Source: Eubacteriales bacterium (GTDB taxonomy: Bacteria > Bacillota > Clostridia > Lachnospirales > Lachnospiraceae). From it: 64,000 nt of DNA. The DNA is taken from the NCBI GenBank assembly GCA_030524545.1, contig JAUNGM010000010.1, positions 1-64,000 of the forward strand. Direction: 5' to 3'. Shown here piece after piece: positions 16,620-19,877 of the stretch. The notes beneath the pieces were generated by a model. It saw only the letters and a list, made by a program, of their open reading frames with translations. It was not told the DNA's origin and did no database searches. A program made the translations under genes and the position numbers. Within the stretch, counting starts at the first letter, position 1. Every line of letters begins with the position of its first letter.

Positions 16620-18419
16620 CTACCAGGGAAGATAGCTGCCGCTGTCTGAATCATAATAGTACCAGCCTCTGCCCTGCCCAATAGGGGCGCCGTCACCCGC
16701 TGCCTGTTGGAAGGGGATATAGGAATTGGTTCCTGCATCCCAGGAATACAGATCGAAAGGATCGTTCACGCCGGAAGAACTGCCTGTGCCGTCGGAAGCT
16801 TCATCGCCATTCTGGCTGTTCTGTTCCTGATCATCATCATAATCGTTGTATTCATTGTTCTGATAGCCGTTTGAGGTGTCATTATCCGGAAGACCATTTT
16901 CTGCCAGGCTGTCCTGCTGTTCACTGAAAGCAGGGGTGTATGTATCTGTTTCAGATGCATCAAAGGACCAGGCATCCGTTCCATTGCTGTCAATATCTGC
17001 CTGGGAATTGCCGGCTTTTGCAGCAGCGTCCGCTTCCTCGATACTGTTTGTGAGATAGTCTGCATGGATGTAGCCGGAAATTCCGTCTGTTTTTACCGGA
17101 AGCCATCCGTCCCGGGAATTACCGGTTACCGTAACGGTGCTTCCAGGGGGAATTGTTTTGATGACAGAACCGTCCAATGCGGGCAGACTGCGGATATTTA
17201 CATCAGAAAGCGTATACATTTCATATTCATTCGCTGTTGCGGTCATCTTTACAGTTTCAGATGAATTCTGCGTTTCCGATTTTTCAGAAGTCTCAGCCTG
17301 TTGAGGAACTCCTGTGGTCTGTCCTTCTGAACCGCCGTCCAATGATTGAACGATACTTTCCGTACTTTGGCTGTCTGCGGAGGAGTCCGGCTCCTTAACA
17401 GAGGCCGAAAGTACAAAAGAAGCATTCGTTATGATCAGCAGGCCGGTCAGCAGTATTGCGGGAAGCACACTGCCTTTCAGATTCTTCAGATGAATCATAT
17501 AAAGGATCCTGTCCTTAAATACCATAGTGCTGTCATTGAGACTGGCCGTAATGTATGGAATATGGTTTTGAATGGCCACGGTTCTCAGAAGCAGCCTGCG
17601 GTAAAGCTTGTGGTCATTAGCGGTGCAGTGCCGGATAACATTGGTATCACACAGGTTTTCAATATCGTTTTCTGCTTCTTTGAGCATAATGAGCAAAAAC
17701 GGATTAAACCAGTATACTGTAGCACAGATCCTCAAAAGCATTTTATACCACAAATCTTTGTGCTGGTGATGGGACAGTTCATGGTGAAAAATCAGTTTCA
17801 GCTCTTCGGCGGTGTACCCTACTGCGGGAAGATAAAGCTCTGTTTTGATCAGTCCTGTCAGAAGGGGTGTGGAAATCCCGGCATTCTGCATCAGTTTGGG
17901 CGGATGCCTGACATTCTTTAAGCGGCATACGGAGGAGTATGCTCTTATAGTGACAGGATTATAAACAGGAATGCTCATACGCCTCAGATTCTTCATGGAA
18001 ATATAGTAAGCAAGTGCTTCGCAGAGCATCTTTATGACTGCACCTGTGATCCACAGAGTCAGAAAAACTACTGCGGCAAGATGCAGTGATACAGGAAAGC
18101 GATTCCTGCCAGGGGTGCTGCTTCTATTGCTGTCTGCCAAAGTCCTGTTCACCGGCTGGCTTTGGGAAGCTTCCTGGTCGGTTCCGGCTGCCGCCTGCAG
18201 ACGGTTCTCCTGCGCATCCTCGACTTGGAAATGAAATGTTGAATATTGTTCCGGTATTCGGACAGGAATAAGGAGGCTCAAAGAGAGCATGAGCCAGGCA
18301 AGATACTTCCATTTGGCAGTAAATTTTCCCTTGAGAAAAACGGACATCACTTTGACAAGTAAAATGATAACAGCACAAATGATGTTCAGTTTAAGGATAT
18401 GAAGCAAAAATCCTTCCAC
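16620..18419 (-). CDS. BlaR1-like M56 membrane metalloprotease with SH3 domain and unique C-terminal tail
   Basis: Start placed at a GTG (VEGFLLHIL) 4 bases after the stop of the BlaI-type gene, with AAGGAGG 9 bases upstream; this gives 599 residues. Layout: membrane helices near 6-28, 35-52 and 112-130; zinc protease motif HELSH (213-217) with downstream glutamate in EAENDIENLCD; fourth helix about 316-338; low-complexity extracellular linker; bacterial SH3 domain (about 402-460); Ser/Asp/Asn-rich linker; final 48-residue tail beginning NDPFDLYSWDAG. BlaR1/MecR1 proteins sense a cell-wall signal outside and cleave or destabilise a BlaI repressor inside. Here the usual penicillin-binding sensor is replaced by SH3 plus tail, so the ligand is different and unknown. 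Confidence 0.88.
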   Translation of the reverse strand: MEGFLLHILKLNIICAVIILLVKVMSVFLKGKFTAKWKYLAWLMLSLSLLIPVRIPEQYSTFHFQVEDAQENRLQAAAGTDQEASQSQPVNRTLADSNRSSTPGRNRFPVSLHLAAVVFLTLWITGAVIKMLCEALAYYISMKNLRRMSIPVYNPVTIRAYSSVCRLKNVRHPPKLMQNAGISTPLLTGLIKTELYLPAVGYTAEELKLIFHHELSHHQHKDLWYKMLLRICATVYWFNPFLLIMLKEAENDIENLCDTNVIRHCTANDHKLYRRLLLRTVAIQNHIPYITASLNDSTMVFKDRILYMIHLKNLKGSVLPAILLTGLLIITNASFVLSASVKEPDSSADSQSTESIVQSLDGGSEGQTTGVPQQAETSEKSETQNSSETVKMTATANEYEMYTLSDVNIRSLPALDGSVIKTIPPGSTVTVTGNSRDGWLPVKTDGISGYIHADYLTNSIEEADAAAKAGNSQADIDSNGTDAWSFDASETDTYTPAFSEQQDSLAENGLPDNDTSNGYQNNEYNDYDDDQEQNSQNGDEASDGTGSSSGVNDPFDLYSWDAGTNSYIPFQQAAGDGAPIGQGRGWYYYDSDSGSYLPW

Positions 18420-18423
18420 GGGG

Positions 18424-18813
18424 TTAGTCCTCCTTGTTTTCCAGCTCCTGCAGGAAATCACTGAGATCCTGAAGCTCGTCGGAGCTTATTTTTCGTCCCT
18501 GATAAAGAGAAGTCACAAATTTCTTCAGAGAATTGCCGTACAGCTTTTCCAGTACGCTGTGACTTTCATGGGCCTGATATTCCTCCTGTGAAACAAGCGG
18601 GGTATAAAGGTTCATCTTTCCGTGTTTTTCAACGCATACGTAATTTTTGGCTTCAAGGCGTGTCAGCAGGGAAAGAATCGTTGTAGGTGCCAACTGCTTT
18701 TTCATGTTGACGATTTTCTCGATTTCAGACCGGCTCATGGGGGGCGTGCCGTTCCATAATACCAGCATGATATCCAGCTCGGATTCAGGAAGTCTTTGAT
18801 ATGATTTTTTCAT
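18424..18813 (-). CDS. BlaI/MecI/CopY-family repressor
   Basis: 129 residues with the family's N-terminal winged helix (LPESELDIMLVLWNGTPPMSR; MKKQLAPTTILSLLTRLEAK) and C-terminal dimerisation helices. Family members bind TACA-NN-TGTA dyads and are inactivated by proteolysis after a BlaR1-type signal. The M56 protease gene follows after 4 bases. A CTAC-N4-GTAG dyad lies 21 bases before the start, consistent with autorepression. Start follows GAGG at 8 bases. Confidence 0.93.
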   Translation of the reverse strand: MKKSYQRLPESELDIMLVLWNGTPPMSRSEIEKIVNMKKQLAPTTILSLLTRLEAKNYVCVEKHGKMNLYTPLVSQEEYQAHESHSVLEKLYGNSLKKFVTSLYQGRKISSDELQDLSDFLQELENKED

Positions 18814-18833
18814 GATAGTTACCTCACGGTTTT

Positions 18834-18845
18834 CTACGTTTGTAG
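18834..18845. promoter_or_regulatory. BlaI-like operator before the repressor gene
   Basis: CTACGTTTGTAG (CTAC-N4-GTAG), related to the BlaI/CopY consensus TACA-NN-TGTA. It lies just downstream of the putative promoter, at about +10 to +20. Confidence 0.6.
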
Positions 18846-18855
18846 GAACAATTCT

Positions 18856-18883
18856 ATTTTAACATACCTGCGGGGAAAAACAA
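18856..18883 (-). promoter_or_regulatory. Candidate promoter of the blaI-like/M56 operon
   Basis: On the minus strand TTGTTT and TAAAAT are spaced by 16 bases. The operator dyad follows immediately downstream. Confidence 0.45.
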
Positions 18884-18935
18884 GTAATCCCTGCAAAGAA
18901 ATTTTATGCCGGATAAGGATTCTTTGCAGGGATTT
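18883..18935 (-). terminator. Terminator of the secreted tail-sharing protein gene
   Basis: AATCCCTGCAAAGAA (18886-18900) pairs with TTCTTTGCAGGGATT (18920-18934); on the minus strand it leads into ACTTGTTTTTCC. Confidence 0.7.
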
Positions 18936-18949
18936 ATATAGGCTGTTAT

Positions 18950-19750
18950 TTACCAGGGAAGGTAGCTGCCGCTGTTGGAATCATAGTAATACCATCCATT
19001 GCCCTGGCCGATGGGGGAACCATCGCTTGCGGCCTGCTGATAGGGAATAAAGGAATTGGTTCCTGCGTCCCAGGAATACAGGTCATATGGATCATTGACA
19101 TCAGCAGAGTCGTCCGTTTCTTCCGCATAATCGGCGTTCACTTCGGAAGAACTGTCTGTGTTTTCGGAGGAGCCGTCCGTGCTGTCATAGGAGCTGTCAG
19201 TCTCTTCTGAGGTGCTGTCCGTTTCGTTTGCTGTACCGTTCGTTTCTTCGGAAGAGCTGTCAGTATTTTTAGAAGAGGAACTGTCTGTGCTGCCGGAAGC
19301 GGTTTGGGATCCGGCTGAGGCGTTGCTGTTATTCATGGAAACGGTACTGCTGTTTTTCGCAGAGGCCGTTTCGGGATAGGTGATACTGTCAATGATTTCC
19401 TTTACTTCGGAAATATCCGCTGCTTTGACTGCAGAGCCGGTTACTACATAGATTTCATTTCCTGCACAATAGAAGGTCTGATAAACCGCTTCATATTTCT
19501 CATCCACTCTGGCAGGAGCGGGAAGGTCATCATAATCCTCATATTTCAGAACGGTGACTTTATCTGAGCCATTGGTAAACGTGTGGAGAGTATTTGCATC
19601 AGAGATTTCCTTCCAGTCTTTGTTTATGGATTCAAGGGAAATGGAAGTGTCGCTGATATTGATGGATGCAGCGTTTCCTGTAACAGAAAAGGTACAGATA
19701 AGGGCTGCGGATAATGCAAAGGCGGTAAAAATTTTACTGTTTTTTCTCAT
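18950..19750 (-). CDS. Secreted protein sharing the C-terminal tail of the M56 protease
   Basis: Start placed at the ATG (MRKNSKIFTAF) 7 bases after GAGGAG; upstream in-frame codons run through the operators and promoter. 266 residues: Sec signal peptide (1-26), a small folded domain (about 27-135; begins SINISDTSISLES), a Ser/Thr/Glu/Asp-rich linker (about 136-218) and a final 48-residue tail beginning NDPYDLYSWDAG. The tail matches that of the neighbouring M56 protease at 41 of 48 positions in my alignment. The promoter carries three BlaI-like dyads, so it is probably a target of the BlaI-type repressor. Function unknown; a wall-associated effector or ligand of the sensor is a reasonable guess. 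Confidence 0.8.
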   Translation of the reverse strand: MRKNSKIFTAFALSAALICTFSVTGNAASINISDTSISLESINKDWKEISDANTLHTFTNGSDKVTVLKYEDYDDLPAPARVDEKYEAVYQTFYCAGNEIYVVTGSAVKAADISEVKEIIDSITYPETASAKNSSTVSMNNSNASAGSQTASGSTDSSSSKNTDSSSEETNGTANETDSTSEETDSSYDSTDGSSENTDSSSEVNADYAEETDDSADVNDPYDLYSWDAGTNSFIPYQQAASDGSPIGQGNGWYYYDSNSGSYLPW

Positions 19751-19803
19751 TGGGAATCTCCTCTCATTGATTTGTTTATTTGGTTTATATTTTCTCTTGA
19801 TTT

Positions 19804-19877
19804 CTACTTTTGTAGTAGATACATATATACTACATCTGTAGAAGGAAAAAGTCAATAGTTATTTACTACTTTTGTAG
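19804..19877. promoter_or_regulatory. Three BlaI-like operator dyads
   Basis: CTACTTTTGTAG at 19804-19815, CTACATCTGTAG at 19830-19841 (an exact TACA-NN-TGTA) and CTACTTTTGTAG at 19866-19877. All have the form CTAC-N4-GTAG, like the single site before the blaI-like gene. The middle site lies inside the promoter spacer. Confidence 0.7.
19827..19855 (-). promoter_or_regulatory. Strong promoter of the secreted tail-sharing protein
   Basis: On the minus strand TTGACT (19855-19850) and TAGTAT (19832-19827) are separated by exactly 17 bases, near consensus for sigma-A. The central operator overlaps the spacer and -10, so bound repressor would exclude RNA polymerase. Confidence 0.65.

Follow-up and report, generated by a model that had tools for sequence, protein, structure and literature searches.

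Why should the membrane sensor of a BlaI-type regulatory circuit and a separately encoded secreted protein end in the same short tail? The question arose from a 64-kb stretch of Lachnospiraceae DNA (the window; contig JAUNGM010000010.1, from a genome of 4.34 Mb that we call the own genome), in which the gene for a secreted protein (SEC) lies beside blaI and the gene for an M56-family zinc protease. The original prediction had linked the tails of the sensor and SEC to each other. Comparison with relatives bore this link out: the two tails were matched in 12 of the 13 loci that carry SEC, blaI and the M56 gene side by side, a set that we call the unit. The type of tail differed among these loci, and therefore it is the matching, not a particular tail, that is conserved.

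In the window, the predicted shared tail of 48 residues was confirmed at the ends of both proteins. The sensor and SEC tails, hereafter the LPW tails, were identical at 41 of 48 amino acids (85%). At the DNA level 115 of 144 nucleotides were identical, and codon positions 1, 2 and 3 were the same in 45, 44 and 26 of the 48 codons, respectively. The proportions of nonsynonymous and synonymous differences (pN and pS) were 0.07 and 0.70. This codon-position pattern and the low pN relative to pS indicate that the tail copy is old and under purifying selection, not an echo of assembly. When the own genome was searched with the tail, the next best place had an E value of 1.38.

The comparison covered 64 genomes of the genus and 397 genomes of the family; G numbers denote genomes, and L numbers denote fetched stretches with coordinates local to each. 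BlaI orthologues with 78-93% identity were found in 12 other genomes of the genus, and contiguous units in 13 of the 64, the own genome included. The gene order was the same in all 13, with SEC adjoining blaI on its promoter side and the M56 gene directly behind blaI, and the HExxH motif of the protease was HELSH or HELTH throughout. In G428, SEC and the M56 gene lay close to the ends of two contigs. Two further places resembled remnants. One was a second copy in G458, with a BlaI frame unmatched N-terminally and neither SEC nor dyad. The other was an M56 gene in G457 with the second tail type described below (L136, 5227-8138), which immediately follows an OrfB_IS605 gene; its 12-kb stretch gave no match to BlaI or SEC.

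Two tail modules account for the matching. Both proteins end in LPW in the window, while in 11 units both end in a second module of 52 amino acids (...TTNGDYYYRDDNGTGFTDNGDGTWTDENGNTYTE). Within the matched units, the common C-terminal module was detected with E values from 5e-18 to 5e-39. No homology was detected between the LPW tail and the second module. In the remaining unit, G434, SEC carries LPW and the M56 protein carries the second module (E 0.003 between them, unmasked). At E<1e-14, the second module was found in 27 genes of the genus genomes, 12 encoding SEC and 15 encoding M56 proteins, and nowhere else; matches of lower significance (3e-6 to 1e-3) were inner repeats or other proteins in the genomes inspected (G415, G417 and G435). 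Outside the genus, the family genomes gave weak matches at three places (E 5e-8 to 5e-7). One stretch from another genus (L240, G010) carried distant relatives of the second module, with two matches about 2.4 kb apart and no M56 protein recognised.

Phylogenetic trees gave some indication of how the tails changed. A midpoint-rooted tree of BlaI and the N-terminal part of M56, built from 10 of the 13 units (G439, G405 and G410 were left out), contained three groups: the window with G434 (support 100/99), G420 with G458, and the remainder. A tree of 15 copies of the second module, taken from seven units and the G434 sensor (G412, G439, G405, G410, G428, G457 and the second G458 copy were left out), placed SEC copies and M56 copies in separate groups (96/94), except that the M56 copies of G420 and G458 fell among the SEC copies. 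Judged from this tree, a SEC-type tail took the place of the sensor tail a second time in G420 and G458, which belong to a clade other than that of the window. The G434 sensor formed a long branch whose placement was unsure. The tree of LPW tails had no strong support (84/83 for the window pair). SEC of G434 carries, in addition to LPW, the middle region of the genus lipoproteins described next. Either the switch came first in SEC and later, in the window lineage, in the sensor as well, or the G434 sensor switched back.

The original prediction asked whether the LPW tail always accompanies M56 proteases or BlaI-type regulons, and a search with the tail alone had been proposed there. That search showed that the tail is not specific to BlaI regulons. 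At E<1e-5, LPW was found in 12 of the 64 genus genomes: two copies in the own genome, one in SEC of G434, eight in lipoprotein-like genes and two in remnants. The eight lipoprotein-like genes were intact, with a lipobox recognisable by eye, and no dyad, BlaI match or M56 match was found on the stretches fetched around them (two of these stretches, L033 and L034, being contigs 6.9 and 4.4 kb long). LPW as a marker of BlaI regulons was thereby ruled out, and for this tail the outcome that the original prediction had named as a refutation was obtained. Elsewhere, LPW was found in one of the 397 family genomes (the own genome) and in one contig of the genome_contigs collection, a Lachnospiraceae metagenome-assembled genome; the plasmids searched contained none. 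In L036 (G437) and L039 (G399), the LPW lipoprotein gene is flanked by a hexapeptide-repeat gene on one side and a TraX gene on the other; in L039 a topoisomerase gene follows.

Across the sensor and SEC tail copies taken together, 27 columns were invariant. No convincing known fold was found for SEC or either tail: the LPW profile matched no PDB chain at E<=1, and the second module gave two weak matches, 9loc (E 0.0011) and 4ijy (E 0.031). Choline-binding or cell-wall-binding repeats did not reach the cut-off, the best being PF19127 on one lipoprotein (E 0.52) with none on the window proteins. OCRE repeats (PF17780, cut-off 24.7 bits) reached 19.2 bits, and that solely on a distantly related LPW sequence in L044.

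The circuit itself was recognised as predicted, with a BlaI-type repressor (94.7 bits for PF03965; cut-off 22.6) and an M56 protease (148.9 bits for PF05569; cut-off 31) whose extracellular part has an SH3 domain rather than a beta-lactam sensor. No PF00905 transpeptidase match was present in the window sensor, and the best NCBIfam BlaR1 model, with a cut-off of 400, scored 123.3 bits on it. The original prediction also saw no beta-lactamase nearby, a negative at which no separate search was aimed. The GTG at 18419, immediately after blaI, is the most likely start of the protease. Read from the sequence, SEC starts at an ATG and has 266 residues; the listed frame of 301 residues begins too far upstream. 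No convincing Pfam match was found for SEC, whose N-terminal domain occurred in two of the 397 family genomes (the own genome and G263, the two genus members sampled); SEC itself gave no match in the viral contigs searched. A PsbP/Mog1-like N-terminal domain would be speculation. Separate transcription of SEC and blaI is plausible because a stem-loop intervenes and blaI has its own dyad, though the stem-loop was not among the terminators listed by the terminator scan. The coordinates of all features are collected in the table.

Features of the SEC-blaI-M56 locus in the 64-kb window
Feature	Position	Strand	Basis or remark
M56 (BlaR1-type) zinc protease/sensor, 599 aa from GTG	16620..18419	-	PF05569 E 2.4e-43; HELSH motif
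LPW tail of sensor, 48 aa	16623..16766	-	tail alignment
SH3_3 domain, extracellular part of sensor	17049..17207	-	PF08239 E 2.5e-11
BlaI/MecI/CopY-family repressor, 129 aa	18424..18813	-	PF03965 E 6.1e-27
Operator-like dyad before blaI	18834..18845	.	dyad present in 11/13 units
Stem-loop, 15 bp, T-rich stretch behind; terminator-like	18868..18949	-	z -5.14; between SEC and blaI
SEC, secreted protein, 266 aa	18950..19750	-	signal peptide (by eye), genus-specific N-terminal domain, Ser/Asp-rich linker, LPW tail
LPW tail of SEC, 48 aa	18953..19096	-	tail alignment
Operator-like dyad 3	19804..19815	.	downstream of -10; 26 bp from dyad 2 in 14/14
SEC promoter TTGACT-17-TAGTAT	19827..19855	-	consensus match
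Operator-like dyad 2	19830..19841	.	overlaps spacer and -10; 14/14 SEC promoters
Operator-like dyad 1	19866..19877	.	upstream of -35; exact match in 8/14 SEC promoters

The remaining claim, that SEC has its own promoter and that both transcription units carry dyads, was likewise supported. Four CTAC-N4-GTAG dyads were found in the window against 0.29 expected, every one at this locus, three before SEC and one before blaI, and none of 100 shuffled windows reached four. The SEC promoter was called by a scan that yielded as many promoters in its shuffles; its TTGAC was unchanged in all 14 SEC promoters of the genus, and in all 14 two dyads spaced exactly 26 bp lie around the -10 region. Of the three SEC dyads in the window, the central one overlaps the -10 hexamer. 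The blaI dyad starts 31-41 bp upstream of the gene in the units that have it. Dyads placed in this way are what a repressor acting by blockage of RNA polymerase would have, with BlaI as the putative binder. One sequence, CTACANNTGTAG, includes a TACA-NN-TGTA box, which we take to be the consensus of CopY/MecI/BlaI-type operators. The likeness to such operators lies in this box; the difference is that window dyads such as CTACTTTTGTAG and CTACGTTTGTAG deviate from it on one side.

To place the shared tail in context, a survey of other M56 sensors was considered. M56 sensors were found in 111 of 160 sampled family genomes. The survey comprised 80 M56 loci from 71 genomes, hand-chosen among the matches listed, mostly long frames with the best scores first; one was a second locus of the own genome. 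A usable ectodomain was available at 79 loci (81 proteins, 66 with at least 2 kb on both sides). At E<1e-3, an ectodomain shared similarity with a neighbour of the same locus strongly in L167 and L223 and weakly in L185 and L182; relaxing the threshold to E<0.01 added L177, L176 and an antisense open reading frame (ORF) in L174. The between-locus control gave 111 pairs at E<1e-3, in which 30 of the 81 ectodomains matched 17 ORFs. Of the 47 pairs below 1e-15, 45 fell onto the neighbour in L167 and onto L222, itself an M56 gene, and nearly all of the strong between-locus similarities are of the transpeptidase type. L167 (5963-8764, G099) served as a positive control: its M56 protein has a PF00905 ectodomain, and its convergent neighbour, which we infer to be class-D-like, has the same domain. 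The transpeptidase-type protein of L167 was matched by 23 of the 81 sampled ectodomains. In L223 (4359-5612, G039), an ORF has an M56-like membrane stretch at its start and duplicates the adjacent M56 ectodomain but lacks the protease part, possibly a sensor decoy or a fragment.

Two known systems share this kind of design. As in the BlaR1/BlaI circuits of S. aureus and others, an M56 protease with a C-terminal extracellular sensor stands beside BlaI here, and an output gene appears, from its dyads, to be under the repressor. PMC9834060 and PMC5957439 describe a relationship between the BlaR1 sensor domain and class D beta-lactamases; the L167 pair fits this precedent. By contrast, the window sensor lacks a transpeptidase domain, SEC lacks a recognised enzyme domain, and what the two proteins have in common is a short tail, which has been exchanged for another without detectable relationship to it. 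The second system is RsgI/SigI of Clostridium thermocellum, in which, according to PMC4711584, the extracellular module of the sensor belongs to a family present in the secreted proteins that it controls: RsgI6 has a GH10 module, SigI6 acts on promoters of GH10 xylanases in a B. subtilis host, and several RsgI proteins carry CBM3. That system differs in using a sigma/anti-sigma pair and carbohydrate modules of known kind, where the present one has a repressor and a protease. A sensor ectodomain homologous to part of a secreted product was found in 12 of 13 units, G434 being the exception, with regulation predicted from the dyads. Since sensor-output module sharing is known for BlaR1/class D and RsgI, the principle itself is already known. 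This type of tail, this output and the swap documented here were not found in the literature searched (most subscription papers lie outside it).

The co-switching of the tails suggests that SEC and the sensor either have a partner that both recognise or recognise one another. We favour, with a probability of about 0.5, a self-contained sensory circuit in which both recognise the same extracellular partner and the tails are co-switched. In such a circuit, BlaI would repress SEC and the blaI-M56 operon through the CTAC-N4-GTAG operators, as BlaR1/BlaI biology suggests. A signal on the M56 ectodomain would lead to cleavage of BlaI and release of SEC, by analogy with BlaR1 as described in PMC9834060. 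The input part of the sensor would have the C-terminal module of SEC since both must recognise the same surface component or ligand. SEC would have gained LPW, apparently from a genus lipoprotein, and the sensor would have gained it later, so that input and output were matched again. As SEC accumulated, it would take up the shared partner, and the signal could then be damped or reported. Such competition or feedback, suggested at the outset, is one of several possible readings and goes a step beyond a shared partner; a cell-wall ligand for the sensor would be a guess. More tentatively, the specificity of the sensor may be set by a copy of the tail of its product, re-tuned by copying each new product tail, with SEC as both output and competitor or signal. 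On this doubtful extension, the product would change first and the sensor follow, and G434 would be a living intermediate.

Several observations weigh against the shared-partner circuit. Five of the 13 units (G263, G412, G439, G405 and G410) are nearly identical, so independent lineages are few, namely three clades. Tail matching is not indispensable because G434 is unmatched with open reading frames; this mismatch shows that the matching rule can break, at least temporarily. The LPW tail is common on lipoproteins, and the blaI dyad is absent in G434 and G423. In the own genome, the dyad pattern was not enriched (11+8 matches, versus 29+33 for the reversed pattern). The pattern CTAC-N3-TGTAG occurred at 14 distinct places, four at the locus and ten elsewhere. 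For this pattern, nine of the ten outside places lie within ORFs of at least 80 residues, which instead favours a self-contained circuit over a wider regulon. The tenth (C29:18233; L078 1501-1512), a CTAC-N4-GTAG dyad, lies between genes, some 85 bp upstream of an ORF of 445 residues; given this position, the regulon may be wider and include a second target, and the dyad is possibly a further BlaI target or a chance match. Finally, conversion between neighbouring genes could homogenise the tails without any function.

This last point leads to the best surviving alternative, which we consider fairly unlikely: adjacent genes for modular surface proteins might simply recombine their C-terminal repeats, the tail being a surface-binding patch with no regulatory role. 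The presence of LPW and W-x-D-x-x-G modules on several genus surface proteins, the G434 mismatch and the conversion-like replacement in G420/G458 would all be expected from such copying. Nevertheless, the 52-residue module is restricted to SEC and M56 proteins at E<1e-14, purifying selection followed the copying of the tail, and strong sharing with a neighbour was seen in just two ectodomains at the 79 other M56 loci. Nor does homologous conversion explain the swap in the window, because the swapped modules have no detectable homology.

The tail matching across units and the 27 invariant columns would also agree with SEC being the signal itself, such that the cell gauges the amount of SEC outside, either through association of identical tails or through displacement of the sensor tail from a docking loop by the SEC tail. 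We regard such output monitoring as unlikely: the G434 sensor would be deaf, LPW also occurs on lipoproteins with no sensor nearby, and binding between tails is purely hypothetical. A sensor can look like the target of the factor that it detects. Very improbable here is a bait, in which an extracellular protease, chaperone or hostile factor would target the SEC tail and the sensor tail would be a decoy reporting that activity; the same pattern of tail sharing and the kinship of the BlaR1 sensor with class D enzymes speak for it, but no such factor was seen and the tails appear conserved, not fast-changing.

The locus has a practical value. M56 sensors are common in the family, and most of the ectodomains sampled did not match the transpeptidase-type protein of L167. 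With its two module types in matched pairs and its mixed intermediate, the unit offers direct access to the question of sensor input.

Two secreted proteins from other genomes resemble SEC in part. Those encoded in L148 (3984-5195, G415) and L149 (4135-5295, G417) combine a SEC-like N-terminal domain with SH3_3 and W-x-D-x-x-G modules, the SH3_3 of the L149 protein falling just under the cut-off. No BlaI match or dyad was found on these 8-kb stretches. The SH3 part of the window sensor is similar to that of the L148 protein (E 3.7e-4).

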